From Saccoglossus kowalevskii (Eukaryota > Hemichordata > Enteropneusta > Harrimaniidae), in assembly GCF_000003605.2 (NCBI RefSeq), contig NW_003151785.1, positions 1 through 23,535 on the forward strand: a stretch of DNA of 23,535 nucleotides, in the 5' to 3' direction. Shown here in pieces: positions 3,973 to 21,522 of this stretch. The position numbers and the translations under genes were made by a program. The notes beneath the pieces are model-generated. The model did no database searches, was not told where the DNA came from, and saw nothing but the letters and a program-made list of their open reading frames with translations. Each line of letters opens with the position of its first letter. The first letter of the stretch is position 1.

Positions 3973-4308
3973 ATATTTACAACATCGCTTTGAATAGTTA
4001 CATGCCCGGTTGTCTTCTCACCAACTGCTGGGCATTGAACGATGGGCGCATACCACGTGATGTTAATTCGAAATACCAGGAAGATATTGCCTCAGTCTTC
4101 ACGGCTCGTTATATAATGCCATCTGTGGATCCACCAACGCGAGACCAGCAACCCGGATGGAAAAGCATGGACTGTAAATTGAACAGCTTGAGACAGTTGA
4201 CGAACAACGATAGGCGAGAGCGTCTACTTTTCAAAATGTCAATCGACATGACTTTCGACAAGAAGCTCCTCGTCGACAGTGTCAGAATTCTGACAAGAAG
4301 GGAAGATG
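3973..4308 (+). CDS. Mosaic gene exon 1: fucolectin/F5-8-like module, first part
   Basis: Acceptor TTCTAG is at 3967-3972 and donor G|GTGAGT at 4308/4309. The exon is 336 nt, phase 1 at both ends, so it can be skipped or moved without frame change. It reads I-Y-N-I-A-L-N-S at the start, then A-L-N-D-G, and later K-M-S-I-D-M-T-F-D-K-K-L-L-V-D-S-V-R-I-L. This follows the order of the fucolectin/F5-8 type C-like jelly roll (N-x-A-L-N, a short D-G motif, then a hydrophobic V-D-L...V-x-V-x-I-x-x-R strand pair). Two cysteines (GC...NC) lie near the start and one DC in the middle. Family identity is inferred from this spacing and from the next exon. No signal peptide is encoded, so at least one upstream exon is missing from the window or was not recognised. 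Confidence 0.65.
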
Positions 4309-5141
4309 GTGAGTGGATACTAAACAGACAATTGTATAATGATGGCGTACCATTTCGCATATGCCTACAATTATTTTAGAAGAATATGCAAGCAATTATA
4401 CCATGGATGCAAATGGCCGCCATATTGGTGGGGGATGGGGGTCTGGCTGAGTAGCATGACACATTTGACTAAAATCGAAAATTGTATTATTTACATAAAT
4501 TAATATTCAATAGCAATGAAAAATAACGTCTTTTCAGGAATACTGTGCCAACGTGCTTTCCGAGCTAGCTGCAAAAATAATCGAAAAACTGGTGTCAAAG
4601 TGTTTTTAAGTCCAGCAAACAAAGTAACCACAATTTTATTCTTTAATGTGATCATAACAAGTTGCGAAATTCGTTGATGGCCTGCGTACGACTGACTTCG
4701 AAACGATCCATCCAGATCGGACGCACTCCCCCTTGCCAATCCTTCCTGGCACAATGTAAGTGCGTTCGTGTCGCTGCCTCGGGGTGCCCCCCTAGTGACG
4801 TGGCAGTAGTGACCCGTGGCAACGAAAGGGCTCCTCAAGGAAGTAGTTTACAAGAACGTAATCCGGGAAGCAGTGTCACGTGACTGTATTGGTCCGATAC
4901 TACGCAAGCGAAACTCGTAAAACGTATAAAATTTATTTCAAATACACACCAAGTTTAACCATGTTGGCGTTGATAATTTTATACAACTTCGCAGTTATTT
5001 TCTGTACATGAAAGAATGAAACAGTGTTTGAGAAAAAAACAATTTTTTTCCAATAAACAATCATGCTAATAAACAATTACTTAGTCAAGACAAAGTTAAA
5101 TTAATTTAATTAATATCGTGCAATAATTAATATCTACACAG
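4309..5141 (+). other. Intron between the two halves of the fucolectin-like module
   Basis: This is an 833-bp phase-1 intron. Nothing coding is supported in it. The part from about 4500 to 4910 is richer in GC and CpG than its flanks and may be an old transposon, but I found no terminal repeats or protein relic. Confidence 0.6.
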
Positions 5142-5414
5142 TATCTCGCCTGGAGGGTATTACAGTCCTCTCTTCAGCTGTACTCCTCGATGAAGAAGCT
5201 GTTCGCGTGGTGTGTGGTGATACTCTAGAACTCATTAATGGCGTTTACCCAGAAAGCATCATCATAGATGAAACAGATGGTGGTTTAGTGTGGATACATT
5301 TTTTCTGCCAAGCCGATTTCGATGACTTGTACACCGAAGGCTTAAGGATTGGAAGTCTTCTGCAGACACATTACGGCGCTTACATATATGAAATCGAAGC
5401 GTACACTACATACG
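5142..5414 (+). CDS. Mosaic gene exon 2: fucolectin/F5-8-like module, second part
   Basis: Acceptor CTACACAG ends at 5141 and the donor is G|GTTAGT at 5414/5415. The exon is 273 nt, phase 1 to phase 1. The join with exon 1 creates a Val codon (G+TA). It opens R-L-E-G-I-T-V-L, matching the R-L-x-G-x-x-V strand of fucolectin-type domains. It closes with G-L-R-I-G-S-L-L-Q-T-H-Y-G-A-Y-I-Y-E-I-E-A-Y, matching the final strand that usually ends in L-x-L-x-E-V-x-V-Y. Two cysteines lie between (V-V-C-G and F-F-C-Q). Such modules usually bind fucose, galactose or acidic lipid. The residues that would decide binding cannot be judged by eye, so the ligand is unknown. Confidence 0.65.
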
Positions 5415-5434
5415 GTTAGTGCAATTATTGTTGG

Positions 5435-6048
5435 TTGAAATGGGGGGGGGGGGGGTCGTCACCTGCTCCTGCGACAGACGGCCATGGCGTGTCGGTATTT
5501 ACAAATAGACGTCTATCCGCAAGCTTTTACGTTTTTAGCAGGTGGTGTTATTCACTGGTTCCCAGCATCCCTTGCGAATCACAAGTAGTACGCAGGTAAC
5601 TAGTGATCACCATATTGGTCCAGTGGGCCGGGATTCCCACGTGACTAAATGGCGTAATTTGGAAACATTCCAATTTTCGTTTCCTCGTAAACAAGTTTGT
5701 ATTACTGCGATGAGGCATGCCTATTCAGTCTGCCTGTTTAGACTTCCTATTTGAGACGTTTCTTGCTATGTGTTACAAAAGAAACAGTTTTATATTCAAG
5801 CAACTATTGAGTGTAAAAGAAAAAAAACTCTGTTTTAATATAACGACCACTAGCGTACGCGCTGGCGTCAGGTAAGCAAAGGAAATAAAACAAAGAATGA
5901 GAACGTGATGGACCAATCAGATCGCCGGAACCATTACTAGTTACCGAGCTCTTGTGGCTTGGTGCGCTATGACATTTGAGAACCAGCCAAGCGTTGTTAT
6001 CGTCACTCAATTCCCGCGCGTGCGCAGGTGACGACCCCTCCGCTTTAA
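5435..6048. mobile_element. TTAA-flanked MITE copy 1, split by a nested element
   Basis: The left half (about 5450-5553) and right half (about 5987-6048) match the two ends of the intact copies at 9355, 11101 and 17511. The right end is CGACCCCTCCGCTTTAA. The left terminus is worn and replaced by a run of 14 G at 5442-5455. The two halves are separated by a 432-bp insertion (see 5555-5986). Confidence 0.8.
5555..5986. mobile_element. Nested element with long imperfect inverted ends
   Basis: It interrupts MITE copy 1. The left side begins CTGGTTCCCA and the right side ends TGAGAACCAG. Inverted similarity continues inward: GTAACTAGT and ATTGGTCC at 5597-5624 are mirrored by ACTAGTTAC and GGACCAAT at 5910-5945. 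Pieces resembling GTTGTTATCGTC flank both sides, compatible with a duplicated target, but the exact duplication is blurred. There is no transposase frame, so it is non-autonomous. Confidence 0.6.
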
Positions 6049-6996
6049 TCTCGTAATTTCAATGCTATACACCTTTTCTATAATCGAGCCATTTAGTGAC
6101 GGAACGATTTGATGACGTAAGTGAATAGCACGAAGGCCTTCATAATCCTTCGATATCTTTTCACAAAATGGTATTCAGATTACACCTTGTTTTAAAAGTA
6201 TAACATACTTAGGTAGTTTAGACGTATTATATATCATATATTCAATGTTAAGTGTACGTGCACTGATGCGTGTGTATGTTGAGTCGTTGATTACGATTAC
6301 ACAGTGACTGGATATTTCTATGTTGCAAATATGTCTGAAAACTTTGCTATCCTACTCCTAAGTTTTGTATGAACATATTGTAGACTTTGATTTTTTTCAA
6401 TAAATTGTTTTAATTATGTAGGAATTCTCATTAAATGTAATGTTTGAGATGTTTTTTTTTTTTAGAATCAGCGGTATGAATTGATTCAGAACTAATTTAT
6501 TTAAACACATTTCAATATTATCTATTCAACTTTTACCTCAAGAAATAGATTATTTAGTGGGAGTCAAATACACTTTATATAAACACGGGTCAGGTGTGGC
6601 AGAAAATAATATAAACCAAAATATAATTGAATTTAAGGTGGCGTTGGAGGGAAAAATGCATTTAGAGGTGGAATTTAATTTTTTTTACATTTATATAGTA
6701 GAAAACGACCTTGCTCTTGAGTGAAAATTTCAAAATTCTATTGTGAGTAGAACACCTAATAAACTAGGTTTAAATTATTAAAAACAAACACATGTACCAT
6801 GGTCTTACTTTAACTGTTTAATTTGCATAAATCTTGCTTAATTAATGTTGATTGGTCGCTGGAGCTTAACAGTGGTATGCAAATCATGTTTCAGTTTCGT
6901 TTCCTGTGTACTTCTTTCACCATGGAGCTACCTTCATCATTTCACAAACACCGTTCGTACGCAACACACCAGCTATTATATATATCGAGATATTAT
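6049..6996. other. AT-rich part of intron 2, nothing recognised
   Basis: A strong pyrimidine tract plus TAG near 6450-6465 imitates a 3' splice site, but the sequence after it stops quickly in the frames that would fit. No domain similarity or transposon ends were found. Confidence 0.55.
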
Positions 6997-6999
6997 ATT

Positions 7000-7030
<31 letters not shown>

Positions 7031-7032
7031 TT
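6997..7032. repeat. (TTTA)n microsatellite
   Basis: About nine TTTA units without interruption follow an AT-rich TATATA stretch. Confidence 0.95.
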
Positions 7033-7199
7033 ATACATGTCACAGTGTAAGGCCTGCTTATCGCAATTGAGAGGGCCACCAACAGAGCTCACACTGGACA
7101 GGGGGGTTCTTTCACTGCTAGTATAGGGTAGACAATAGTACTGGAAATGAAATACACATACACCAAAATATCGAGTTAAAGCTTCTGGATTTAATACCT

Positions 7200-7830
7200 C
7201 TCAAAATAATTACAAGAAATAAAGCACAGAAAAATACAATGAATAAAGTTACTAAAATAGGGGATTGCTTAGGGAAGTGTGCATTGGTGATAACTCACAG
7301 TTTCAGGATGTAATAATGGAAGACAATCAGTGGCTTCTGCAACACAACGACGAAGAAATACAGGAGTCTTGCTTGTGGAGGAACGCTGGTATTCTGAAGG
7401 GCGCCGCTGAAAGCGGGAGATCGCAGAACAGTAAATACAAGTCTCACAGAATGATGCTTGTAGCCTGTATCACTTGTCACACAATATCGCAGCAGCACAC
7501 ACAGGATACCAAGTTGAAATGATGGACCCAAACTGTCCTCAGCCTGTCTAATTTATAGGCGTGATTCAGTGACACCATCTGGGTTTCCACATAAGTCAAT
7601 CAGAATGTGATGTTGCTAGCAGCTGTGTCACGTAGGCAACTCAGTAGATCATAAACATCCCTTGCTATTCAAATAACAGCACACCTGGTAGATTCCAATT
7701 CTCCTTCCAAAGTTGTAAACACCCTTTGTTTTGTAAATTGCAAGCACACCTGGTAAATTCCAACCGTTTTACAGAGTTGAAAACAAGTATGACCCGTCAT
7801 TCACCTTTATGACAGTTATCAAACGGCAAT
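7200..7830. repeat. Dispersed repeat, copy A (partner at 13605-14050)
   Basis: The stretch from AAAGCACAGAAAAATACAAT (about 7221) to GCAGCAGCACACACAGGAT (about 7506), and again about 7630-7825, is clearly homologous and in the same order as 13605-14050. Shared blocks include ATACAGGAGTCTTGCTTG and ACAAGTATGACC. Copy A also has an internal duplication of AGCACACCTGGTA about 64 bp apart (about 7679 and 7743). No open frame is conserved between the copies, so it is probably a non-coding part of a transposon of unknown class. Confidence 0.75.
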
Positions 7831-8441
7831 GCACAGCGTTTCTCCCCATGGAACACACTTCCATTTGCAGGGTTTGAGGTAATATGACAAAAAACATAAA
7901 ATAAACGATGCAGACACTCACAATGAGAACTGAACTGATTTGATGTAGTCTATATGGGCCGAAAAAGTAAGCCAGTGTGTTATCTCTACAAGTATATGAT
8001 TTCTAAGTAATGTACCCTGTGACGTACCTTGTTTATTTCACTAGTTGACATAATTGCTGAGATGTACATTGTGTGTAGTGCTGATATCGCTTTGACATTG
8101 ATGCAAACATAGATTTAAATTGTCGTTTTTTGGGAGATTGACGAAATCAAAATACTCGAGTTTTGAAGTATTATTTGTCAATGCATGGATTGGCAGTGTC
8201 CCTTTTGCTTTTTTTATTTTTTCCAAAATGAAATAATATACAGTCCGGTGTTTCATCTTAAGTGTTACTTTCTAGTTGCTTTTCAATATTGTCGCTCATG
8301 GGTTAGTAGGTATTGTCACATGTTATTCAGAAAACAAACCTATCATTTTAATATGCTTAGTCGTGGGGTGTCCAATCATTAGGATCTTTTAAGTTCTGGT
8401 AATTTTTCCCGAGTTAGGTCATGTTGTTTAATGCCATTCAT
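7831..8441. other. Intron 2 sequence, nothing recognised
   Basis: The sequence is AT-rich with only short open frames on both strands that carry no domain-like features. I found no terminal repeats. Confidence 0.5.
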
Positions 8442-8525
8442 ACGGTGATTTACCCCAGACCATTCGTCCTGGTGTTGTGGCGATAGCGATAACACCGGGA
8501 CGAATGGTCTGGGGTAACGGTGATT
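8442..8525. mobile_element. 66-bp near-perfect foldback insertion with 9-bp target duplication
   Basis: ACGGTGATT occurs at 8442-8450 and again at 8517-8525. Between them lies a 66-bp hairpin: arm 8451-8476 (TACCCCAGACCATTCG...), loop 8477-8490, arm 8491-8516. The 26-bp arms differ at one position, which would be a G-U pair in RNA. The exact flanking direct repeat says this is a recent insertion. A 9-bp duplication fits Mutator-like or similar DNA transposons, but the element is far smaller than usual MITEs. Confidence 0.85.
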
Positions 8526-8960
8526 AGTTTACCCGGTTTGGTAAGATGGGTTTCTTTGATCACTTGTCAGCACGATACATAGCCATCTGCCGTGACAGTG
8601 TTGCTCTTAGGGTATTTAATGAATGGATATATACATGTGATATCTGAATAATGACAACAGCAAGCAACATCGCTATTTTACCTTCAGTTGTGAATGACTG
8701 GTTCGTGGCAACCAGTCACTGCGCATGCACACATGCGCAAAGCATAAACAAGCACCACGGCATATAATGCAAACGCTTCTTGGATTTTTTTCATTATGCT
8801 GAATACACTGATTAAATATTTGTATTATTATTAAATCATCGTCATGTGACGAATGTGTCACCGCATGACGTCTATGGTATTTTGCATGATAATAATTTTG
8901 TTAAAACAAAACTTGGCACAGGAAAATATATCACATGTGTTCTATATTTTATTAGCACAG
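8526..8960. other. 3' part of intron 2
   Basis: A TGCGCATGC/CATGCGC-rich spot lies near 8720-8740. The rest is AT-rich and ends in the pyrimidine-rich acceptor TTTTATTAGCACAG used by the kringle exon. No gene was seen. Confidence 0.5.
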
Positions 8961-9197
8961 GCGGTCTCGATGAATGTTTCTGGAATGTTAATGGAGTCGA
9001 CTATCGCGGTGAGGCGAGTATGGAAGGGTGCTTGCCATGGTTGGAAGTGCTTGGTGTTACTAAACGTACGTTCCTTGTGCATCTAGATAAAAACTATTGT
9101 CGCCACATGAAGTATTTAGATCACTACCATACTATCTGTGCTATCACCATGGATGATGTAGCTGCCTGTTATGCAGGTGAACCAGGGGAAAAATGCT
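8961..9197 (+). CDS. Mosaic gene exon 3: kringle domain
   Basis: Acceptor CACAG is at 8956-8960 and donor T|GTAAGT at 9197/9198. The exon is 237 nt, phase 1 to phase 1, encoding one whole module of 79 codons. Six cysteines occur in kringle order: D-E-C; Y-R-G...E-G-C-L-P-W; K-N-Y-C-R; H-T-I-C; V-A-A-C-Y; G-E-K-C. The Y-R-G, C-x-P-W and N-Y-C-R motifs are the classical kringle signatures and the length is normal. The G-P-W segment before cysteine 4 is not conserved, so it is a divergent kringle. An earlier AG at about 8922 is possible but lies upstream of the module and has a poorer tract. Kringles mediate protein-protein binding in secreted and receptor proteins. Confidence 0.85.
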
Positions 9198-9267
9198 GTA
9201 AGTTTGATTCTCTCATCGTCATTGCTAACTTTATGCCACCATTGTAGTCCAGTACTACATGTATATC

Positions 9268-9334
9268 CCGGGTGTACATTACACGCGTTATACAGTGTAC
9301 AATTACGGTGTACACATTACACGGTGTACAATGC
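9268..9334. repeat. Cluster of GTGTACA / ACGGTGTACA motifs
   Basis: GTGTACA occurs at about 9272, 9295, 9308 and 9324 with interspersed TTACAC, and ACGGTGTACA is exactly repeated. It lies 20 bp from MITE copy 2. It looks like a short degenerate tandem repeat. Confidence 0.6.
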
Positions 9335-9354
9335 CACACGTCCTATTTCAAATG

Positions 9355-9523
9355 TTAAAGCGGGGGAGTCGTCGCCTGCGCATGCGTCAGATGGCCATAG
9401 CGTGCCATTGTTTACAAACAAACGTCTACCCATGGACATTTACGTTTTTAGCGTGTGTTGTTATCGTCGCTTGGGACTCAATTCCCGCGCATGCGCAGGT
9501 GACCACCCACCTACCCACTTTAA
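9355..9523. mobile_element. TTAA-flanked MITE copy 2
   Basis: TTAA at both outer edges (9355-9358, 9520-9523). The left end is AAAGCGGGGGAGTCGTCG and the right end is its worn inverse (CAGGTGACCACCC...). The interior shows the CATGCGTCAGATGGCCATA and TTACAAACAAACGTCTACC segments common to the family. About 165 bp, with no coding capacity. Confidence 0.85.
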
Positions 9524-10819
9524 ATTGTAATGTATGGTAGTGATTGTTCCAATAATTGACATACTGTAAAATACTTTATTTTAGAAGGAATTGGGTGTTT
9601 TGTATGGATTTTTTCCCACTGATTATTGATGAGTTAAACGTGAAATATAGCAAAAAGTTTATTCGCTAGAATCTATTTTCACTGAAGCATTTCTTCAGCG
9701 AAAATTAATTTTCAAGTGGAAAAAATGTATTCTACAGTATATTAGATCGAATTCTCTAGTCACTGACGTCCAACACATTGCGTTTTGTGCTCCGAGTCAT
9801 AGTCTATTATGCTTTATCACCTGCTTCAAATTCTTCCAATCTCAACTTGGCACGTGACCCCCCCGAAAATGAATTTAATTACATTTAATTAAATCCATAG
9901 TTAGATGCAGGTTCGTGGCCAGAGTAATTTTTGTTTGCTTGTTATTATCCAAACAGTCTTGGCTATAGACTGTTAACATTTAGCAAGGCTAAAATGCACT
10001 ATATTTCACTTTTTACAAAACTACGATACATTTAAATTTGGAACTGTTACAGCCATTTTAATTATGAGCATTAGCAATCTACTTTCTGAGTGAATGGTTA
10101 TGCAAATTAGCCATTATTCCCACTTGTGTTTTTTAGTTTACTAGGGAAGTTCAAATCCAAATAGCTCTCACAATTGTTGTTTATTTCAAGTGGAACTATC
10201 ACACTACATTTATCAGTTGTTTATTAATAAATCGGCATCCGGGCGTATATATAGTTTGTTTTGTTTTCATATCACAAAGTTGCCAAGCAGGCCCGTTTTA
10301 TAAAAGTGACGTTTATCGTCCACAAAATAGGCTATTGCATCACGACGACATGCCAAAATCTATCATACACCACGCTTACTGATGTTCAATCGTCAGACAA
10401 AAATAAAATAAAAATATTTACAATTCGAGGGAAACGGACGTAAAATTGTCCGTGAAGTCAAAATCTTGCATGTCATGGCGTCTTGTTATAATTTCCACTG
10501 ATGAGGAAGGGGCACAATGGATTACGTAAAGCCGATGAGATATTATTACAGTTATATAAACATAGCGATCGCGATTGGGCGAGTTGAGTCTAAATTAACC
10601 TTTCCTGAAACCTTTAACAAATACTTTGTATGACACAGTTTTTCGCGATCCCCGGTGAAATACCATATGGACAGTGCGAATTTAGACGACGCGGTTGAGA
10701 TGGGATGTAATATTTTGCTACATAACGGCTATTCGCAGTTTTTACTGCTCAATCGCTCAAACGCCGTTGAGACAAATTCGAAATGAAGTCGCATTAGAAG
10801 GGAAACAGGTCGATAAAAA
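9524..10819. other. Intron 3 sequence with no recognised gene
   Basis: AT-rich. At 9903-9921 the string AGATGCAGGTTCGTGG equals the terminal motif of the MITE at 10820, so a truncated relative starts there; no matching right end was found. The open frame near 10261-10443 has no domain features. GCGATCGCGATTG near 10565 and TTCGCGATCC near 10642 are short palindromic spots without clear meaning. Confidence 0.5.
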
Positions 10820-11032
10820 TTAAGGTATTGATGCAGGTTCGTGGGCACTTTTAATCACATACGCGGGCCTCGGTTCCCTATATTTTAAAACCGTTTTTGA
10901 GTATGTTCCAGCATTGACAATGCTCCGAAATTTTATAACTATATAGCCAAGTCTGTCTGAGTAAGAAAAATAAAAAAAAAAAAGAAAAAAAAAATCATTC
11001 CGACTGCATACGAACCTGCATCTATACCTTAA
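10820..11032. mobile_element. Second MITE family, TTAA-bounded
   Basis: TTAAGGTATTGATGCAGGTT at 10820 is mirrored at the right end by CGAACCTGCATCTATACCTT up to TTAA at 11032, giving inverted repeats of about 23 bp with one or two mismatches. The 213-bp interior is non-coding and contains an A-rich run at about 10968-10994. The TTAA edges suggest the piggyBac-like target preference, as in the other MITE family here. Confidence 0.8.
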
Positions 11033-11100
11033 TATTTTGCTTTTCTACATGTGCTACATTTTGGTGGCTGAAAGTGCCAGACATACTAGACGGTGACCTA

Positions 11101-11265
11101 TTAAAGCGGGGGAGTCGTCGCCTGCGCATGCGTCAGATGGCCATAGCGTGCCATTGTTTACAAACAAACGTCTACCCATGGACCTTTACGTTTTTAGCGT
11201 GTGTTGTTATCGTCGTTTGGGACCCAATTTCCGCGCGTGCGCAGGTGACGACCCTCCCGCTTTAA
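11101..11265. mobile_element. TTAA-flanked MITE copy 3 (best preserved)
   Basis: TTAA at 11101-11104 and 11262-11265 enclose a 165-bp unit with inverted ends of about 25-30 bp (AAAGCGGGGGAGTCGTCG against CGACCCTCCCGCTTT). The inner part of each arm includes TGCGCATGCG and its mirror CGCGTGCGCA. It sits 27 bp upstream of the EGF exon and so close to its branch-point region that it may form part of the 3' splice environment. Confidence 0.9.
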
Positions 11266-11292
11266 TTAATAAGTACATACATTTTATTGCAG

Positions 11293-11415
11293 ATTATCCC
11301 AAAACCTACCTATGTGAGAGTAACCCATGCCACAATGAGGGTACCTGCGTTCCAATATTCGATACTTACACGTGTGTTTGTCCAGTTGGACTCACCGGGG
11401 ATCTGTGCGAAGGAG
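11293..11415 (+). CDS. Mosaic gene exon 4: EGF-like domain
   Basis: Acceptor ATTGCAG ends at 11292 and donor G|GTATAT is at 11415/11416. The exon is 123 nt, phase 1 to phase 1. Six cysteines in EGF spacing: C-E-S-N-P-C, N-E-G-T-C, Y-T-C-V-C, then G-L-T-G-D-L-C-E-G. The hallmark G-x-x-G-x-x-C end is present. The N-x-D/E calcium signature at the start (D-x-D/N-E-C) is absent, so this is a non-calcium-binding type. The join with the kringle exon forms a Tyr codon. A GT further 5' is not available in the right phase, which supports this donor. Confidence 0.92.
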
Positions 11416-12735: not shown

Positions 12736-13020
12736 TGGTTGGGTTCAATATACGAGGGTCATTCACATATCCTGAAGCAATGGCTGCCTGCAAATACTTC
12801 AATGCAAGCCTGGCATCTTTCGAGGACGCGCGAATGGCTCACTGGTACCACGTAGAGTGTGATGGATTTTATTGGAATGAAGGTAGAATTCCAAGAAGAA
12901 CTACAAGTAATTCAGTCACGGCTATGGTACATCAAATGATACGTTACAACAGTCACTGGATTCTAGCTAAGAACGCCCCTCTGGCCACACGTTTTTGGGC
13001 AATGTGTGCCCGGGCATCAG
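12736..13020 (+). CDS. Mosaic gene exon 5: Link-like module
   Basis: Acceptor TTATTCACAG ends at 12735 and donor G|GTAATT is at 13020/13021. The exon is 285 nt, 95 codons, phase 1 to phase 1. It reads G-S-F-T-Y-P-E-A-M-A-A-C, then N-A-S-L-A-S-F-E-D-A, then V-E-C-D-G-F-Y-W-N-E-G-R-I, and ends F-W-A-M-C-A. This follows the Link (hyaluronan-binding) module order: aromatic-rich strand, EA..AC helix, LAS turn, C-x-x-G-[FW]-[LY], then Y/W-x-x-x-C. Only three of the four usual cysteines are seen, so one disulfide is probably lost. A divergent C-type-lectin-like fold is the main alternative, as the two folds are related. Confidence 0.6.
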
Positions 13021-13604: not shown

Positions 13605-14050
13605 ATAATGATAGGAAACAAAGCACAGAATAATACAATGAATATATTCACTAAAATAACTCAGAGTTCCAGAATGTGAAAAATTATGGAAGTCAATGGC
13701 TTCTTGCAACGCAACAAGAAAGAGATACAGGAGTCTTGCTTGCAGAAGAACGCTATTATTCTGGAGGGCACTGCTGATAGCAGGATAACACAGAGCAGTT
13801 CATACAAGTCTCAGAATGATGATTGAAACCTGTATCCCAGTCTCACACTATTGCAGCAGCAACACACAGAATGGTAATTCCCAATCTAGCCTAGCTCTCG
13901 CACGATAAGATTGCAGACACTCACGCAAGCAAGTCAGTAGATCGTAAACATGCTTTGTTATGTAAATCACAAGCACGCCTGGCAGATTCCAATTTTCCTG
14001 AAACAAGTATGACCTGTCAATCACCTGTATGACAGTTGTTATGAACCTGG
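13605..14050. repeat. Dispersed repeat, copy B (partner at 7200-7830)
   Basis: It carries the same ordered blocks as copy A: AAAGCACAGAATAATACAAT, GGAGTCTTGCTTGCAGAAGA, then AGTAGATCGTAAACATG, ACACGCCTGGCAGATTCCAA-like and ACAAGTATGACCTGTCA. It lacks the internal duplication of copy A, and about 100 bp of copy A between 7520 and 7630 is missing. This copy is directly followed by a Tc1-like relic on the minus strand. Confidence 0.75.
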
Positions 14051-14199
14051 CCGCCAATATCCCGCACTCCAGGACGCAACACTAATAATACTAATTTAAT
14101 AATACAGCAAGCTTAAACCATTGTTAGGAGTAATATAAATCACACACCGGTCAGCAATAAACATTACAATAAGGATAATAGCCCAGCTCAGAATTGCCT

Positions 14200-14550: not shown

Positions 14551-14599
14551 TGAACTATACTACTCAAAACAATTTAAAGAACATTTGAATATTTCAGTT

Positions 14600-15370
14600 A
14601 CAGCAAGATCCTTTATTTCAGAAAAACCCATTTGGTAAAATAATTGACGTGAAACATATGCAAATGAAACAGATGATAAGGACTGCACATTACACATTTC
14701 GTTACATGAGTTCTGAAAGAGAGAAGGGTTGAAAATGAAAATCCCAGTTCATGGAACATTTCAATAATGGGTGTGACCACCTCTTGCAGAAAATCTGTGA
14801 CAACACGTGCACGCTGTGGTCTGGCTTTATCATCTTGTAGAACTGCCGCGTCTCCTATCCACGGTAGACAAGGTAACACTACAGGATCTCGTCTCTGTAA
14901 CATAATACAGTTAAGTTGCCATCAGTAACATGGAGAGGGGTCCTTCGGTGGTAACTAAAGCCACCCCATACCATGATGCTGCCACCACCAAACTGGTTGT
15001 GCTGTCTGATGGTGGCATCAGTGAAGCATTCGTGTCTATAGACAAGATTACGACCATCATTGTTCTGCAAAGTGAATCTTTGACTCATCTGTGAAGACGG
15101 AGTTGCTGCTGCTGAGGGTCTTACGTAGGGAATTGGCAGTTACGGTTCAGTTACGAAGGGCTGAAATAAGGAGGTAGCAGTTCTCAGCAGAAGTTGTGAC
15201 ACGTGGACGACCTGACCTGGGTCTGCCATGTACTGTATGGGTTTCTCTGAAGCGCTGGGATGATCTGTGAATAACAGATGGGCAGCTTATGGCAAGGAAA
15301 CACTCTCATTCAACAAGCCTATGGCTCTGGCTCTCTCTTCAGTTGTTAAATGTTGACATGAAAGCATGCT
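14600..15370 (-). pseudogene. Tc1/mariner transposase pseudogene
   Basis: Read on the minus strand: T-E-E-R-A-R-A-I-G-L-L-N-E (first helix-turn-helix, near 15340), G-R-P-R-S-G-R-P-R-V-T-T (15196-15238, the AT-hook-like linker), F-T-D-E-S with the first catalytic Asp (near 15080), F-G-G-G-S-I-M-V-W-G-G (near 14970), R-Y-R-D-E-I-L, and Q-D-D-K-A-R-P-Q-R-A-R (near 14840) with the second catalytic Asp. The third catalytic acid (D-L-N-P-I-E region) is missing. The sequence jumps to a 3' tail after F-L-Q-E-V-V, so there is an internal deletion, plus frameshifts and in-frame stops. Full-length relatives are about 340 residues. Terminal repeats were not located with confidence. Confidence 0.9.
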
Positions 15371-15906
15371 TGCAAAAGCTGCGACAATGCCATTAGTGAG
15401 TGTATTCTGATTACCATAATTGGCAGATGTGATCACAAGGATGCATTATGTACAGGGAAAAATAGAATATCACAACACACCGCTTTTTTTCATGACTCCA
15501 TGCAAACTTCTATTTTCAGGGTTTTTAGGTAGTATACAAAACCTAAAAGTAAAGGATGCTGACAGTGCATTTGGCCATAGCATCCGTAAATTACCGTTAT
15601 GTTTATCCAGTTCACACCCAATCGGAGTAGAAAAAAATCTTCGCGATCGGGATAAATTTCCTTTAACAACAGGTTGCAAAACATTACCCTGGGTACCCTA
15701 TTTTTGACCGAGGCTTTCTTTGTAAATATTTAAATATGTGTCATTCTATAATACCTGTAAAATGCGCCAACGTGATCTAATGCAAAATATCCAAATCGAG
15801 ATACAAAACAACATCTAGATCGGGTTTTATATCTCAAATTGGATACGCGTATATTCCGAATAGATAGACGGTTAGGTTTGCACAGCTTACTTCTTTATTC
15901 ATTCAG
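15371..15906 (+). other. 3' part of intron 5
   Basis: The open frames near 15420-15707 on both strands lack domain features. The stretch ends in the acceptor tract TTCTTTATTCATTCAG of the first F5/8C exon. Confidence 0.5.
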
Positions 15907-15995
15907 ATAGTAGCTGCCCGACCAACTATTTCCCTTATGGTGTTATTGATGGTCGTATACAAAAAGAACAAATAGTAGCAAGCTCAAGATATGAC
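15907..15995 (+). CDS. Mosaic gene exon 6: F5/8 type C domain, N-terminal piece
   Basis: Acceptor TTCATTCAG ends at 15906 and donor GAC|GTAAGT is at 15995/15996. The exon is 89 nt, phase 1 at the start and phase 0 at the end. It encodes S-S-C-P-T-N-Y-F-P-Y-G-V-I-D-G-R-I-Q-K-E-Q-I-V-A-S-S-R-Y-D in short. The order C...Y-G-V...G-R-I...Q-I-x-A-S-S is the canonical opening of F5/8 type C (discoidin) domains, which starts with the first disulfide cysteine. It is too short for ordinary frame listings, and the case for it is that it supplies exactly the part missing from exon 7 and repairs the phase. The donor lies at the head of an array of copies of itself. Confidence 0.85.
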
Positions 15996-16100
15996 GTAAG
16001 TATAGGTGGGAGATATGACGTAGCGAGTAAAATATATGACGTAAGAGTATAGGTAGGAGACGTAAGTATAAACAGTGAGTTAAATATATGACGTAAGTTT
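15986..16100 (+). repeat. Minisatellite built from copies of a 5' splice site
   Basis: ATGACGTAAG or a close variant occurs with GAC at 15993, 16017, 16038, 16059 (AGACGTAAG) and 16090. The spacings are 24, 21, 21 and 31 bp, and the filler AGTATAGGTRGGAG is shared. The first copy is the real donor of exon 6. Using the second or third copy would add 8 or 15 in-frame codons with no stop, and a TAG precedes the fourth. Confidence 0.85.
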
Positions 16101-16356
16101 TTATATTAATTTTATGATAAGAAGTAAGTATGAGTTGTAGTAATCTTTATTTGCTTCATACGATTTCGAAATAACAATTATTAACTGGAAGCTGTAGGGT
16201 ATTTGCCATATACACATACTTAATCTGAAATATACAACACATACAACATATATACCAATGTGTACGATCATTGTTGTTAGCGGTTATGCAATTATATTAT
16301 ATTATTATATATTTGCTATATTATATATGATTCCATTTTTTAAATTTATCACACAG
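16101..16356 (+). other. 3' part of intron 6
   Basis: AT-rich, ending in the acceptor ATTTATCACACAG. No other signal seen. Confidence 0.6.
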
Positions 16357-16623
16357 GAACACACGTTGGACTTCAGTGGGGACGTTAATTTATATTTTCG
16401 TGGCAACCTAACGCGCTACTACAATATATGGACTGGAGTTGATGCACCCGATCAAACGTGGCAAATATATTTCCATGAAAGTCAATTGGTGAATGGAGTT
16501 GGTATATATCTAGCAGCCTCCTTGGATTTTAGTGGATGGATGCTACAAACCTTCAAGTTGTCGTACTACCACCAAGAATGGGGTATGATGATTGAAGTGG
16601 AGGATGGCAGAGGCAATACTAAG
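16357..16623 (+). CDS. Mosaic gene exon 7: F5/8 type C domain, central piece
   Basis: Acceptor CACACAG ends at 16356 and the donor is AAG|GTCTTA at 16623/16624. The exon is 267 nt, phase 0 at both ends. It reads N-L-T-R-Y-Y-N-I-W-T-G-V-D-A-P-D-Q-T-W-Q-I-Y-F, then V-N-G-V-G-I-Y-L, then F-K-L-S-Y-Y-H-Q-E-W and V-E-D-G-R-G-N-T-K. This matches the F5/8C core: W-x-A-x-x...Q-W-x-x-V-D-L, V-T-G-V-x-x-Q-G-R, F-K-V-x-Y-S-x-D-G-x-x-W, then x-D-G-x-x-K. A weaker GT at 16583 would cut the domain before the D-G strand and is rejected. The donor GTCTTA is weak, but the next exon restores the domain exactly. Confidence 0.85.
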
Positions 16624-16898
16624 GTCTTACACATTATATTGGGTTATTTGACATCTATTGTCGATTTTATATATTTATTTAGCTCTTGAGATAAAAAGCA
16701 ATCGAATTCATTTTGGAAGTGCTGAAACTGGTTTTCATGGAGAGTATTTTAGGAAGGATTCTTCATCTTTATTTTAATGATTTTTTTGGGATAGTAGCCC
16801 CCAAAACAACGACCACTTGACTTTGGAAAAGAGTTTGGGGGTTGCTCTCTTTGAATGCGTTTGTTATATTTATTTAAATAATATTATTTATTTCACAG
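16624..16898 (+). other. Intron 7
   Basis: A 275-bp phase-0 intron that ends TTATTTCACAG. Nothing else seen. Confidence 0.7.
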
Positions 16899-17052
16899 GT
16901 TTACCACATACAGAACATTTCCGATTTATCCAGTCTAAACTCTGTTTGTCCACATATTAAGACATCCCGTTTGATTATTACAGCGTTAGAGTGGCTTCCG
17001 CAACTACCCGGTGGACATATTGAAGTCTATGGGGAATTCAAACCACGAAATG
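16899..17052 (+). CDS. Mosaic gene exon 8: F5/8 type C domain, C-terminal piece
   Basis: Acceptor TTTCACAG ends at 16898. The exon starts phase 0 and joins exon 7 as K-V-Y-H-I-Q-N-I. It continues P-H-I-K-T-S-R-L-I-I-T-A-L-E-W and ends G-G-H-I-E-V-Y-G-E-F, the classical closing strands (A-R-Y-I-R-I-x-P-x-x-W...L-R-x-E-x-Y-G). There is a cysteine at N-S-V-C-P, but the usual final cysteine after Y-G is not obvious. No GT gives a phase-1 end after the last strand; the best donor is a GC site, G|GCAAGA at 17052/17053, which leaves phase 1. The alternative is a terminal exon read to the TAA at 17085, but no poly(A) signal follows. Confidence 0.75.
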
Positions 17053-17510
17053 GCAAGAACAGGAATTTCTATGATTTACACCATTAAGTTGTTTTAACAA
17101 TATCCATTTTAATTATGATGAATTTAAAATATATACACCGATTCCCTTGTCATGACGTCAATAGTGATGTAAGTTACATATTTGTCAGGAGAAAAAAGAA
17201 TAACTGCTACTGGTGTATTATATGTGCATTTATACCTGCCACTAAATAGCAACATGAAAGTGTTTCCATGGTTACAGTTCGCAAATAACCTCCTCAGCCA
17301 TATATAAAAAAATGTACCAAAATGTAAGTTGGGAAAAATTTGCAAAAGAGACTTCTTTAATTAGATGATTGAAAGAAAGTACGCGACAACGTATAGTACT
17401 TGTGCAACCGTTGGAAATTAAGTACATCTTCACACATAAAGTATAAATATACTGTACTACAGTATCACCTGTGCAACCCAAACAAATTTCGCTCCCTAAC
17501 TTTCTCAAGT
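17053..17510 (+). other. Intron 8, 5' part
   Basis: No gene seen. The open frames on both strands here are short and without domain features. Confidence 0.5.
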
Positions 17511-17676
17511 TTAAAGCAGGGGAGTCGTCACCTGCGCATGTGTCAGATGGCCATAGCGTGTCATTGTTTACAAACAAGCGTCTACCCATGAACCTTTGCG
17601 CTTTTAGCGTGTGTTGTTATCGTCGCTTGGGACTCAATTCCCGCGCGTGCGCAGGTGACGACCCCTCCCGCTTTGA
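17511..17676. mobile_element. TTAA-type MITE copy 4
   Basis: The left edge is TTAAAGCAGGGGAGTCGTCA and the right edge CGACCCCTCCCGCTTTGAA; the right target copy has decayed from TTAA to TTGA. The interior is nearly the same as in copy 3. It is oriented like all the others in the window (same strand), which suits a family whose members were seeded or counted from one orientation only by chance. Confidence 0.85.
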
Positions 17677-18156
17677 ACAAACTTCATTGTTGTGCTATAT
17701 TATAGAACATAGACGTACACAGTACAGAATACATTAGCATGACTTTAGAAAGCTGATGCCTTTTTTATGGCTGCAATGTTAACAGGTGCAACGATATGAC
17801 AAATTGTATTAGCACGAGTCGGCACCTATACATGTATGTATGCGATTGGAGAATTGAAATGCCGATTATGTAACCATCAACTGGAAGAAATAATATGTGT
17901 CCCTGTTTATATTGTAGCAGAATGTTGATATGTTGTTCGGGAGGGTATTTGTGAACTTGACCAAATCTTCTATTGTAATTAGTTCAGGCTAGGCACGATC
18001 TGTTGCTAAATTAGCTGAACTAATCTATGTTTTACGTGTAGATTAACATAATTTATCTACGAAGTAAAACAAATGTCTTGAGAATAATACTTATACATAT
18101 GCTAATACTCCCCCTAGAAAGCATATCTTCATTGTTTTACATCCGGATCAACGCAG
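17677..18156 (+). other. Intron 8, 3' part
   Basis: No gene seen. It contains two competing acceptors for exon 9: CTCCCCCTAG at 18117 and CAACGCAG at 18156, both phase-compatible. Confidence 0.5.
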
Positions 18157-18396
18157 GAAAACATTTATTGGAAAGTGTGCAGTCAGAAGTACTGGGCACG
18201 AAAACGTATTTCATGACTAATCGCCAAGAATGTGAAGCATTGTGTCTCGAGGAAGACATCGGTCAATGTCTTTATCTTATGTATTCCACTATAATTTCTA
18301 AATGTCAATATGGACCAATTCCCTACTGGATGGAAGATATGTCGTCCACATTACAACCGTCCTCGCAGTGGGACTACTACATTCGCCTGACAGAAG
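18157..18396 (+). CDS. Mosaic gene exon 9: PAN/apple-like module
   Basis: The chosen acceptor is CAACGCAG (ends 18156), donor G|GTATTA at 18396/18397. The exon is 240 nt, phase 1 to phase 1. Reading: K-H-L-L-E-S-V..., then R-Q-E-C-E-A-L-C-L-E-E-D...C-L-Y-L-M-Y, then S-K-C-Q-Y-G-P-I-P, and ends W-D-Y-Y-I-R-L. C-x-x-x-C in a helix followed by C-x-x-[FY]-x-Y and a later K-C is the PAN/apple core. W-x-Y-Y-x-R as the last strand fits too. The module is short (80 residues) and has four cysteines in the core. The CTAG at 18117 would add 13 residues. PAN modules bind protein or carbohydrate. Confidence 0.7.
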
Positions 18397-18748
18397 GTAT
18401 TATAGTATATATATCAAACCGATCTCTAAAGAATGTACATTATATGTTCCTTTCTAACAATCAATCAATATTGCGCAGTATTTAATATCTTTTTTTTCAA
18501 CCATTTACTATACACTTGGTCAAAACTTTTGACCGCAGTATTCCCCTCATATTATTCCCATTTGAAAATTTGAAGAACAATCGAAAGTTTCAACTAATAT
18601 TCACGTTTCCATTCATCGATATCAATAAATGTCGTTTCACTGCTGAAGAAACAGATATATGGGATATTACTTCATGGTGTTTGATCGACGTACACAGTTT
18701 TGGATAATACATGTTACCGTATACTTGTAATACCATATCATTTTACAG
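18397..18748 (+). other. Intron 9
   Basis: A frame at about 18516-18707 has D-I-N-K-C, but it lacks a splice acceptor and further cysteines. I see nothing else. Confidence 0.6.
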
Positions 18749-19171
18749 ACGTCTTGAACTGCCAAAATATCACCAGAATATGCTCAATGAAACAGGAATG
18801 TACCGAAGATAGCGGAATTATAAGCACTTTGGACTACCCAAATCCTTACAGGGACGCGTCCCAGTGTTCATGGCTGTTACTGGCGCCCATTACGTCATAC
18901 ATTATAATTGAGTTCCAGGAATTTGATGTTGAGCGTGATAGAAATCTATGTCATTCTGACTTTGTGGAAGTCTATAGTGGACGGTTTGGCGTCGAACGTA
19001 GAGGTCGATACTGCAATCATAACAAGCCAACAACTGCAATACTCTCCAACTTCAACGAGATGTTTGTAATGTTTACCTCCGATGCATATGATGATAGTAG
19101 CCACGGTTTCGTCGCTTCGTATAAGTTCCAATCAGTGTCCGTTGTGAGTTCCCTGTCATCAAATAACTCAG
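18749..19171 (+). CDS. Mosaic gene exon 10: CUB domain
   Basis: Acceptor ATTTTACAG ends at 18748 and donor G|GTAAGT is at 19171/19172. The exon is 423 nt, phase 1 to phase 1, and carries a complete CUB domain. Order: S-G-I-I-S-T-L-D-Y-P-N-P-Y; Q-C-S-W-L-L; Y-I-I-I-E-F-Q-E-F-D-V-E; C-H-S-D-F-V-E-V-Y-S-G; R-Y-C-N; M-F-V-M-F-T-S-D-A-Y-D-D...H-G-F-V-A-S-Y. The four core cysteines are K-Q-E-C, Q-C-S-W, N-L-C-H and R-Y-C-N, and two more cysteines precede the domain. The D in C-x-S-D-F and the S-D near the end match the calcium-binding acids of cbCUB domains. CUBs act in ligand binding and multimer assembly. This exon is the most certain in the gene. Confidence 0.95.
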
Positions 19172-19527
19172 GTAAGTTTGTATATCTTTACCACGACGAC
19201 GAAAATGCTTTACAGAATTACCATTTTTTACATAATTATTACATTTTCCAAACAAGGTCAATGTAAAAACTATGCCTTAAATGTTACTAACCATAATTTC
19301 CGCTAAAACTGCTGTGAATGTTGTAGTTATTATGGATATTAGAGATATTAGACGTGGATAATAGTGAATTGTTCGTGGGGGGGATATGTTGAGCTTATCT
19401 TGTTGAAGCAGCAAGTGTATAAGTAGGTAACATCATCTGGCTGATATCGAGGGGGTATCCTGAAACAACCCCTCGATCTTCCGTTGTCTTTTACTATTGC
19501 CTTTGTTTTTTGTTTGTTTTTTCTCAG
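19172..19527 (+). other. Intron 10
   Basis: A 356-bp phase-1 intron with a G-run (7 G) near 19377 and a strong pyrimidine tract (TTTTTTGTTTGTTTTTTCTCAG) at its end. No gene. Confidence 0.7.
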
Positions 19528-19722
19528 CCTGCCATTCGGGGTGGAAACCATTCAACAATTGTTGTTATCAGTTGTTTCAAATGGCAGATCCATTATCCTG
19601 GAACGACGCTCTTGGTGTTTGTCACACACACAATTCATCATTAACCAGTGTAAAGAGTAGAGATGAATCTGTATTTCTTCATCAAATGGTTTCAGATCAA
19701 CATCTTTCATGGACGTATATAG
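19528..19722 (+). CDS. Mosaic gene exon 11: C-type lectin domain, first part
   Basis: Acceptor TTTTCTCAG ends at 19527. Reading: A-C-H-S-G-W-K-P-F-N-N-C-C-Y-Q-L-F, W-N-D-A-L-G-V-C, S-S-L-T-S-V-K-S-R-D-E-S-V-F, then L-S-W-T-Y-I-G. This is the standard opening C...W..[FY]...CY, W..A...C and L..[IV]....E, leading to W-[IT]-G-L. The exon is 195 nt and phase 1 to phase 1. The only donor that keeps the domain is G|GCAAGC at 19722/19723, a GC 5' splice site: it joins G to GA and restores I-G-L-H-D-V. The later GT at 19733 would create a TGA at the join. Confidence 0.92.
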
Positions 19723-20595
19723 GCAAGCATTGTAATATGAATTGGAAATTTATCCCAGAAATGGTGTATATGATAGACACTATGAGTCATATCAATCCTT
19801 ATTGTAAAACAATACGATTGTGTTGTTCGGCATGTTTTTTTAATTGATATGTAAATTATTACTATACTTTTTATTATTTTGTTTATTATTTGTTGCTTTA
19901 TCATGTACATACTATTTGGCAATCGAAAGAAAGCTTAGAAAGTTATCGGAGACAAACATTAAGTAGCCTCCAAAAAACTGAAGCTTGGCAACCTATATCT
20001 GTCTCCTGTTTGAGGTGTACAACGTGAAAACACATTATTGAAATTTAGAATACATACAGAAAATTATTATATTTTACATGTGTGGTTTCAGACCAAATTT
20101 ATTCCAGAGCACCTCTACAACAAGTTCAATATAAATCTGATTTTATTAACTTGAGATATTGATGGAAAAGCCAAAGAATTATGACTAATTAGGCAAATTA
20201 GGTAATTAATATGCACGGATATTGACTCAAAACATATCAGCTCTGTGTATTGTCCTAGAGCATCTATGTACCATGTTTTATTGTAATGTTATAATTAGTA
20301 CTTAGGATATCAGTGGAAAAGCCAAACAATTGACTAATCACTATGCAAATTAGGTAATTTATAGGCATGGATTTTTTACTCGAAACTAATCAGGTCTGCG
20401 CATATGCACCAAGTTTCATCAAAATCCAATGAGTAGTTCTTTAGATATTAATGGAACAGTGTTTGAAACACGTTTGATGAAAAAGCAATTTAGAAATTTC
20501 ATCTAGTAAGATTTACTTTCCCTTTTAAAATGTGTTTTTAATTTGCACAGTCAGTTTTTTACTGAAAAATAATATAACGTTTGCTTCTCACGTAG
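19723..20595 (+). other. GC-AG intron 11
   Basis: An 873-bp intron with a GC donor and the acceptor TTCTCACGTAG. It holds the repeat array at 20090-20490. Confidence 0.7.
20090..20490. repeat. Diverged tandem repeat, about 140-150 bp per unit
   Basis: GATAT[TC]xATGGAA starts at 20155, 20306 and 20444. Between the first two units the blocks GGAAAAGCCAAA, GCAAATTAGGTAATT and TCAG[CG]TCTG repeat in order. Each unit is preceded by AGAGCA-like then ACCAAGTTT/ACCATGTTT. The spacing is 151 then 138 bp. It is not related to the satellite at 955-1730. Confidence 0.75.
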
Positions 20596-20677
20596 GATTA
20601 CATGATGTGGACATTGAAGGCATTTACAAATGGTCTGATGGCAGCCCTTTGTCATATACAGATTGGGACATAGAAAA
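20596..20677 (+). CDS. Mosaic gene exon 12: C-type lectin domain, central part
   Basis: Acceptor CACGTAG ends at 20595 and donor AA|GTAAGA is at 20677/20678. The exon is 82 nt, phase 1 at the start and phase 2 at the end. It reads L-H-D-V-D-I-E-G-I-Y-K-W-S-D-G-S-P-L-S-Y-T-D-W, the very conserved G-L-x-D...E-G-x-[WY]-x-W-x-D-G-[ST]-x-[LV]-x-[YF]-x-x-W core of C-type lectins. The gap between D-W and the next exon lacks an obvious E-P-N or Q-P-D calcium/sugar motif, so carbohydrate binding of the classical type is doubtful. Confidence 0.92.
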
Positions 20678-21472
20678 GTAAGAGCTATATATTTTCCTGG
20701 GAAAGAAAATTCGAATATATTCACCGCCTAGCAACCAAAATCGGGGAAAACTCTCAAGAAACGGTACTTTGTGCTAGTTGTTGAGACTCCCCTGAACTGT
20801 ATGGCAATATGACCTCTATATGTGCAACATATGTGTAAATTTGGTTGTTCAGGATTGTCTCATAGGTTTGTGCTCTTTTCTCGACTTTAGCTGTTTTCAC
20901 CGGCTTTCGATCGGCGTTACAAAGCAGCTTGCGCAGAGGCCAAGGATATACATGGTACAGTGGTGCGCGTTTTAGCAACGTGGAGCGTTCTGTGACGTAG
21001 CTAGTCCAGTGGATTTAGCCCTGAAACAGGCCGAACCGGGAAGTAAATAGTACATTAACAAATTTGGTATCAAAATATAAGGAATTGTTTGTAGATTTAC
21101 CCAAAAAAAACAAGAACTGATAACATGGGCAATTTTTTTTACACGGGTAGATGTAAGGGTTAGTGTTTTTCGTACATTTTATATTTTTCTTACATTTATA
21201 TTTTGTAATTAATACTACTTACAGCCTACACATTATTTCATATAGATATTGCTAGTGATTTCTATACACTTTTTATTTAGATAAACTGAAGAAACTATCC
21301 GTCAGTTATAGAACAGAAATTTGCTAATGTCAGCTTTATTTTACAATTATTTTAATCCTGTCAAGTAGTCAACCAATCTTTTGTTTTACCAGATACTTAT
21401 CGTTATAACAGAATATCTTTCTAGAAAACTAAGCATTGTTTGAACTTTTAATGACTCGTTTGTGATTTCCAG
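20678..21472 (+). other. Intron 12, no recognised gene
   Basis: The section 20740-21050 has higher GC and CpG than its flanks and may be an old transposon, but I could not identify ends or a protein. The remainder is AT-rich. Confidence 0.5.
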
Positions 21473-21522
21473 TTTTTTTAAACACTCTGTTATTCCCAAA
21501 ATACACAAGGAAGATTGTTATG
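21473..21522 (+). CDS. Mosaic gene exon 13 (tentative): C-type lectin domain, later part
   Basis: Acceptor GATTTCCAG ends at 21472. Phase 2 completes the AA from exon 12 as Asn. It reads F-F-K-H-S-V-I-P-K-I-H-K-E-D-C-Y. The E-D-C is the third conserved cysteine region of C-type lectins (E-D-C-V). A GC donor G|GCAAGA at 21522/21523 leaves phase 1; otherwise the frame ends at TGA 21549. The last cysteines (W-N-D-x-x-C...I-C-E) are not found before 21718, so either another exon lies beyond the pseudogene and the window end, or the domain is truncated. Confidence 0.5.

Follow-up and report, generated by a model that had tools for sequence, protein, structure and literature searches.

The nearest published relatives that we found for the gene described here are the GRL101-like LGRs of snails, that is, the receptors of locus SudRes2 in Biomphalaria sudanica, in which a lectin precedes LDLa, followed by LRR and 7TM (PMC12297450); the available part of that report mentions no further modules. 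GRL101 of Lymnaea and its orthologues are type C2 LGRs with several LDLa modules, LRRs, and a relaxin-receptor-like 7TM; the ectodomains described in the available parts of the sources contain LDLa and LRR only (PMC8286064, PMC11863921, PMC4079206). In the available portions of this literature, GRL101-type receptors have ligands that are either unknown or only proposed, and a connection with parasite resistance is reported for receptors with a single added lectin. In RXFP1, a type C1 LGR, one LDLa module is placed ahead of the LRRs (PMC2396169, as excerpted). The LDLRR-GPCRs of Ciona represent a lineage-specific expansion with 14 members that share a relaxin-receptor-like 7TM and LDLa repeats; they lack LRR, and the excerpted text reports no mosaic modules (PMC2396169). 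Kringle, lectin, CUB, discoidin or LDLa modules are found at the N-terminus of amphioxus GPCRs, which that source, in its available part, assigns to the adhesion family (PMC2246102).

The window, that is, the whole stretch of DNA that was analysed (23,535 nucleotides from Saccoglossus kowalevskii), contains 13 exons that form a chain on the + strand between positions 3973 and 21522. A preliminary description made from the window had read this chain as a gene for eight modules (fucolectin-like, kringle, EGF, Link-like, F5/8C, PAN-like, CUB and C-type lectin) and as a possible lineage-specific recognition, complement-like or matrix protein. We propose that the modules very probably form the N-terminal ectodomain of a very large type C LGR (relaxin receptor/GRL101-like) that is one of a gene family in this genome, because in paralogues a trefoil stands in front of the same chain, which leads, where it can be followed, to a relaxin-receptor-like 7TM, in C4224 by way of LDLa and LRR.

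The chain was rebuilt using the end points, exon count and module list of the preliminary description as anchors; joined, the 13 exons give 918 residues without a stop, and, as had been claimed, all of the module borders are phase 1. The inner introns are phase 0 in the F5/8C module and phase 1 and 2 in the C-type lectin. In a six-frame comparison of the window with seven paralogous contigs (E ≤ 0.001), exons 1–12 are matched in one of these, C4224, with their order kept and on a single strand, and the matches extend past the exon edges by at most 67 bases; the remaining window matches in this comparison are opposite-strand shadows of the exons and dispersed repeats. With homologues in the same order and on the same strand for 12 of the 13 exons, we regard the exon chain as real. 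The joins had also been described as intact, and this holds for the chain as a whole, which is open, but two inner joins require GC donors (after 17052 and after 19722), and exon 13 requires a third; the first two are credible because the homologous positions of C4224 carry GT donors in the same phase.

The chain begins with the two halves of the module that we designate FTP, exon 1 (3973–4308, phase 1-1), with homologues on all seven of the fetched paralogous contigs (which were picked by this match), and exon 2 (5142–5414, phase 1-1), which ends in IYEIEAYTTYG and is assigned from the rebuilt chain and its paralogue match. This module had been named fucolectin-like, an F-type lectin identity that the profile searches do not support: neither the window FTP module nor the window kringle module has, on its own, a match in Pfam, the FTP family profile has no match in the PDB at E values up to 10, the FTP family alignment matches no lectin family in Pfam, and hhalign gives a probability of 0.3% against eel fucolectin. 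Judged by these profile searches, the FTP module is a family-specific domain.

Exon 3 (8961–9197, phase 1-1) encodes a divergent kringle. Its identity is rescued by the family: Pfam Kringle is matched by five of the six members (all but that of the window), and a profile of the six matches plasminogen in the PDB at 2e-20. The family alignment has six invariant cysteines, and the exon 3 module is evidently a kringle. Exon 4 (11293–11415, phase 1-1) is an EGF module (Pfam EGF, 4.6e-11), and exon 5 (12736–13020, phase 1-1) is a Link/C-type-lectin-fold module, for which Pfam Xlink gives 17.5 bits against a cut-off of 27; all four of the aligned family members match Xlink at E ≤ 1 (best 6.8e-5). 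Three exons encode the F5/8C module (F5_F8_type_C, 19.7 bits against a cut-off of 28.2; E ≤ 0.5 in both family members that were aligned, best 9.7e-4): exons 6 (15907–15995, phase 1-0) and 7 (16357–16623, phase 0-0), both assigned from the chain and the paralogue match, the latter ending in EVEDGRGNTK as in C4224, and exon 8 (16899–17052, phase 0-1), whose GC donor is matched in residue and phase by a GT donor of C4224. The PAN-like exon 9 (18118–18396, phase 1-1) reaches 16.3–16.8 bits with PAN_1 against a cut-off of 21.4, and two of three aligned family members match (best 2.1e-5); its acceptor at 18118 is preferred to that of an earlier model, 18157, because C4224 has an acceptor at the homologous place. 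Exon 10 (18749–19171, phase 1-1) is a CUB module (Pfam CUB, 1.8e-21), and exons 11 (19528–19722, phase 1-1, GC donor) and 12 (20596–20677, phase 1-2; chain and paralogue match) are parts 1 and 2 of a C-type lectin (Lectin_C, 2e-11 when joined). Thus, among the names given in the preliminary description, EGF, CUB and C-type lectin pass the Pfam cut-offs and kringle stands by way of the family profile, while Link, F5/8C and PAN are below cut-off and fucolectin is not supported. Four frames were also compared with NCBIfam and had no match there.

The same chain can be followed further in C4224, where trefoil, FTP, kringle, EGF, Link-like, F5/8C, PAN-like, CUB, C-type lectin, LDLa repeats, LRRs and a rhodopsin-family 7TM are found in this order on one strand and within 19 kb. 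The LDLa cut-off of Pfam is passed in four of six frames tested, and a profile derived from the frames that pass detects a fifth LDLa at 0.006; LRR_8 is found above cut-off at 3e-11 in three pieces joined by hand; two LDLa-like and two LRR-like frames have, each alone, no Pfam match. The CUB exon of C4224 contains one in-frame stop. The 7TM frame matches 7tm_1 at 1e-15, the only such Pfam family reported at E ≤ 0.01 (no 7tm_2), so an adhesion GPCR like those of amphioxus is rejected. When this frame is compared with solved chains, relaxin receptor 1 is the best match (1e-35), followed by TSHR (4.7e-21) and LGR4 (5.2e-15). RXFP1 also shares an ectodomain of LDLa and LRR; to our knowledge, it has no mosaic N-terminus. 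The LDLa and LRR parts were read in C4224 only, so it is in this one paralogue that the sequence contains the features of a type C LGR (a 7TM of the LGR branch, LRR before the 7TM, and LDLa) as well as several LDLa repeats as in GRL101. We infer that splicing would join the modules of C4224 in a single transcript and that the 3′ half seen there was probably once present, or still is, in the window gene.

Against the available descriptions of known receptors, the likeness to the SudRes2 receptors is that a single receptor unites a C-type lectin, LDLa, LRR and a rhodopsin-type 7TM and that paralogues form a family; the difference is that here the lectin comes only after trefoil (in the paralogues), FTP, kringle, EGF, Link-like, F5/8C, PAN-like and CUB (PMC12297450). 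GRL101 is described as a single gene per ambulacrarian species (PMC8286064, as excerpted), whereas a gene family is present here.

The wider genome bears on whether the chain is a single gene, as had been proposed. A trefoil exon is located 0.3 to 3.2 kb upstream in the seven fetched paralogues; on 7/7 of these contigs the FTP-kringle pair is flanked, in order, by the trefoil exon and the EGF exon, with Link next in order on six. At the 10 PAN loci outside the window, a family CUB is found 0.2–2.9 kb downstream on the same strand in nine cases, and a 7TM 8.4–20.6 kb downstream on the same strand in six, C4224 included. C4224 is not an independent case because the 7TM query was taken from it; when it is left out, a 7TM is downstream at five of nine PAN loci, a count with a chance of ~7e-16 under random placement (one 7TM place per contig, from 20 matches on 17 contigs; 10 CUB places; 25 kb limit). 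This count excluded CUB-like matches on C1598, C1938, C3355 and C4503, and no PAN or 7TM match is found on any of these contigs. On nine of the 17 contigs where a 7TM was matched, no PAN, CUB or FTP match is found. A side observation in this genome was a mitochondrial COX1 with seven internal TGA codons.

We considered it highly improbable that these are adjacent genes, that is, a secreted protein ending at F5/8C, a PAN-CUB-lectin protein, and separate neighbouring LGR genes. This arrangement would fit the window frame if the GC donor at 17053 is unused (the frame then ends at the stop 17085–17087), the opposite strands of the early modules and of CUB/7TM on C2733, and the 4/10 PAN loci that have no nearby 7TM match; however, at the corresponding join C4224 has a normal GT donor in the same phase, the acceptor of the PAN exon is phase 1 in both the window copy and C4224, the PAN-to-CUB and PAN-to-7TM orders recur as counted above, and a lectin-LDLa-LRR-7TM fusion is already described in snail receptors (PMC12297450, in the part available). 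The module order recurs at several loci of the genome and a split into separate genes was not seen among them, which supports the claim that the modules belong to one gene.

The 7TM matches likewise bear on the claim that the eight modules are the whole of a matrix or complement-like protein. Neither part of that claim is supported by the paralogues, which begin with a trefoil and, where they can be followed, continue to the relaxin-receptor-like 7TM; we therefore dropped a stand-alone secreted protein, because several paralogues run on to 7TM. A related reading, in which the window gene encodes a soluble complement- or matrix-type protein and a 7TM is present in some paralogues only, is improbable. 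It draws on the four PAN loci without a 7TM match within 25 kb (C4124, C1804, C4384 and C2447), on C1804, where no LDLa was found in the 3.6 kb fetched beyond the lectin, and on the window copy, where no membrane anchor is visible; but the other six PAN loci do have the 7TM, the PAN of C2447 matches weakly, contains stops and has no CUB, only ~13.6 kb of the C1804 contig is left for a downstream 7TM, and the genome search scores best candidates only. The type C LGR ectodomain is thus our preferred reading of the chain.

The ends of the window gene raise a different possibility, that the family is as we describe it and the window copy is decaying or truncated, with its trefoil lost and its lectin cut off; we consider this rather unlikely, with an appreciable chance of being correct. 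At the 5′ end, no trefoil was found in a search of the window, including the 3.97 kb upstream of exon 1 (best E 0.06, at a place not upstream of exon 1), a stretch longer than the trefoil distances in the seven fetched paralogues; but the contig begins at this point, so the trefoil may be separated by a longer intron. At the 3′ end, exon 13 (21473–21522, the start of lectin part 3) is doubtful: inspected by eye, it weakly resembles the lectin exon of C4224 from 331800, which is taken as the lectin end and itself has no Pfam match, it is unmatched in the paralogues, although its 17 residues are nearly too short for such a test, and a stop follows soon after if its GC donor is not spliced. A dispersed repeat also begins 3′ of this exon (23178–23534; 72 genome matches including itself), but it may be intronic, as are other repeats in the window. 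Decay is further opposed by the twelve exons that are open and splice in frame and by a pN/pS of 0.44 between the window and C4224, calculated on eleven exon blocks that exclude exons 6 and 13 and at nearly saturated synonymous sites. By-eye inspection identified no start or signal peptide upstream, and the end of the lectin domain was not identified in the window, so the model of the window gene is incomplete; directly beyond the window, its contig (C4199) is N from 23536 to 33500.

If the window modules are the ectodomain of a type C LGR, the architecture suggests a relaxin-type receptor refitted with a string of binding domains that recognise something extracellular. In this scheme, a string of carbohydrate-, matrix- and protein-binding modules would be held off the membrane, where it could capture or scaffold a large ligand such as a glycan, the surface of a microbe or tissue, or a peptide bound to matrix; the membrane-proximal LDLa and LRR would relay binding to the 7TM in the way of relaxin receptors, and the output would be a G-protein signal. 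By analogy with the lectin-bearing GRL101 receptors of snails, the most likely use would be that of a lineage-specific recognition receptor (immune or chemosensory), to which we give about an even chance. More tentatively, and with somewhat less confidence than that, the family may constitute a lineage-specific, expanded class of recognition GPCRs in which nine shuffled modules (trefoil to C-type lectin) precede the LDLa/LRR of a relaxin/GRL101-type 7TM, so that binding to complex surfaces would be converted to a G-protein signal in pattern recognition or chemosensation.

The module combination had been called unfamiliar, and we did not find it in searches of the open-access literature. If correct, this family, with a GRL101-type 7TM behind up to nine further binding modules, would be a natural experiment on turning an endocrine-type receptor into a recognition receptor and a case of exon shuffling of phase 1-1 modules acting on a GPCR; also, a module chain that is read from a genome window may be just the front of a membrane receptor.

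Kremen, which consists of kringle, WSC and CUB, was rejected as a counterpart, because no WSC match was obtained at E ≤ 1 among the window modules and the order of modules differs; the kringle and CUB are common to Kremen and the window gene.

The window gene was rebuilt as a chain of 13 exons and 918 residues, on a contig (C4199) of 69,177 bases of which the window covers the first 23,535; the chain has the same first and last base (3973 and 21522) and the same modules as the preliminary description, all joins are open, and the phase is 1 between all modules, as had been claimed for every module border. Two inner joins use GC donors, at 17052 (after the F5/8C module) and 19722 (inside the lectin), and splicing at the end of exon 13 (21522) would require a third; the main co-linear paralogue, C4224, has GT donors at both the F5/8C end and in the lectin. 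The homologous PAN acceptor in C4224 indicates that the window PAN exon starts at 18118. When all open frames of at least 18 residues in the window were compared with seven paralogous contigs (E ≤ 0.001), the matches comprised exons 1 to 12 and dispersed repeats, the exon matches overrunning by as much as 67 bases and having shadows on the opposite strand; C4224 matches all twelve exons in order. Exon 13, whose shortness keeps the test from being firm, has no match in the seven contigs at this threshold. As judged by sequence comparison, most exons of the chain are settled by the paralogues. Across eleven exon blocks aligned with C4224, pN is 0.338 and pS is 0.768; because synonymous sites are close to saturated, the ratio (0.44) is merely a sign of constraint.

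The module assignments differ in strength. For the window copy, the EGF, CUB, and C-type lectin (Lectin_C) calls made earlier are above the Pfam cut-off, the Xlink, F5/8C, and PAN_1 calls fall below it, and separate searches with the kringle exon and the family-specific first module (FTP, exons 1–2) gave nothing. The Pfam kringle model has at least 86 matches in the genome, none of those listed being in the window; several of them are clustered (C4566, C4317, and C1555). Family alignments support the kringle: 5/6 members match Pfam Kringle, six cysteines are invariant, and the family profile identifies plasminogen in the PDB at 2e-20. For the Link-like module, Xlink is matched at E ≤ 1 by 4/4 aligned members (best 6.8e-5), of which one additionally matches Lectin_C, and weak PDB matches are to C-type-lectin-fold receptors and TSG-6. 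Pfam PAN is matched by 2/3 members (best 2.1e-5) and F5/8C by 2/2 (best 9.7e-4). The FTP module has 41 invariant columns across six members; that alignment matches no fucolectin or discoidin model, which leaves the initial fucolectin-like label unsupported, and the likeness, judged by eye, is confined to the two ends of the module.

A search of the genome (572 Mb, that of an animal to judge from the genes it carries) with FTP–kringle gave 29 matches, three of them the window itself; those elsewhere include C4224, C1266, C4310, C2733, C1352, C3236, C1804, C1342, and C3647, and regions of the first seven of these contigs were read. On all seven, a trefoil exon, first spotted in C4224, lies 0.3 to 3.2 kb upstream of the FTP module and is the first recognised module (C4224:321189-321326, C1266:63268-63402, C4310:58497-58631, C2733:82007-82141, C1352:14640-14780, C1804:27983-28117, and C3236:92704-92838, where the trefoil and kringle matches are divided between frames). 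Pfam Trefoil is matched by 6/6 aligned members. EGF is present on 7/7 contigs and Link on 6/7 (not found on C2733); since the contigs were selected by their FTP and kringle matches, only trefoil, EGF, and Link are independent finds. No trefoil was found in the 3.97 kb of the window upstream of exon 1. In C1352 the beginning of the first of the FTP exons is repeated in tandem to give three copies (15815-15886, 15914-15985, and 16012-16338), the last complete.

Downstream of the C4224 lectin, and on its strand, come LDLa repeats (4/6 tested frames above the Pfam cut-off), leucine-rich repeats in exons of 72 bases and phase 0, and a 7TM frame of 368 residues (338461-339564; Pfam 7tm_1, 1e-15). 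Two LRR frames taken singly have no Pfam match, three LRR pieces joined match LRR_8 at 3e-11, and the frame assigned as the lectin end has no Pfam match. The solved structure nearest to the 7TM is that of relaxin receptor 1 (1e-35); the thyrotropin receptor is next (4.7e-21), and LGR4 scores 5.2e-15. On this similarity, it belongs to the relaxin-receptor branch.

Genome searches gave 20 matches on 17 contigs for this 7TM, 11 for PAN alone (one in the window), and 26 for CUB plus lectin. Outside the window, a family CUB lies 0.2 to 2.9 kb downstream of 9/10 PAN matches and a 7TM 8.4 to 20.6 kb downstream of 6/10 (C4150, C4224, C1352, C4310, C167, and C46), all on the same strand. Because C4224 supplied the query, the count without it is 5/9, with a chance probability of about 7e-16 if matches are placed at random; this model is rough, since it takes no account of gene clustering. 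In C4310 and C1352, trefoil, FTP, kringle, EGF, Link, PAN, CUB, lectin, and 7TM follow in one direction over about 45 kb and about 66 kb, respectively. Against linkage we count C4124, C1804, and C4384 (PAN and CUB, no 7TM match); C2447 (PAN, neither CUB nor 7TM match); a stop inside the lectin match on each of C4310 and C46; the 9/17 7TM contigs without any PAN, CUB, or FTP match; and C2733, in which early modules (77705-82141, minus strand) lie about 8 kb from CUB/7TM (90074-97409, plus strand), as if a piece had been inverted.

That C4199 is missing among the 7TM matches is uninformative, as C4199:23536-33500 reads N. The protein-like frames in window 21966-23535 have no Pfam match; one (23178-23534) has 72 genome matches, itself included, which marks at least this stretch, at the window's end, as dispersed-repeat sequence. 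Two states are possible for the window copy: intact, the repeat then sitting inside an intron, or truncated.

The family is most likely a type C LGR in a variant form, with an ectodomain not met in the literature searched, and the window gene is probably a member. The outer part of the long ectodomain would bind carbohydrate or protein surfaces, and the inner LDLa–LRR part would couple this binding to the 7TM. Relaxin receptors lacking LDLa bind relaxin without raising cAMP (PMC2396169); IGF is proposed as a GRL101 ligand by the author of PMC8286064; and a schistosome-resistance-linked locus in snails contains lectin-bearing GRL101 receptors, although the validated variant belongs to a neighbouring gene and it is not known which gene is causal (PMC12297450). 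The single N-terminal lectin of those snail receptors is described there as unique to them among GRL101s (PMC12297450). One lead is that C-type lectin, PAN, and kringle domains, together with GPCR terms, are abundant in Xenoturbella-specific protein groups; the passage of PMC11521371 on them does not say whether these occur in one protein. Among the open PMC titles, abstract openings, and passages listed or seen, we found no LGR with this ectodomain.

The C4224 CUB exon (329565-329972) is well kept except for one in-frame TAG; the CUB matches of C4310, C1352, C4150, and C46 show none. Four copies of one short repeat are located in the window introns (5441-5551, 9355-9512, 11100-11264, and 17482-17665), and it recurs at C4224:318939-319088. 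Pieces of another dispersed repeat (7033-7905, 13695-14042, and 15467-15565) resemble C4310:52541-53431; the first sits in the FTP–kringle intron, as its C4310 counterpart does, and points the same way relative to the gene, and may therefore be an old insertion common to both. Window 14138-14267 matches C3236:99361-99496, probably a further repeat, and imperfect repeats of about 150 bases were seen by eye at 1063-1748. A COX1 match at C4830:13523-14863 (minus strand) contains seven TGA and is presumably mitochondrial.
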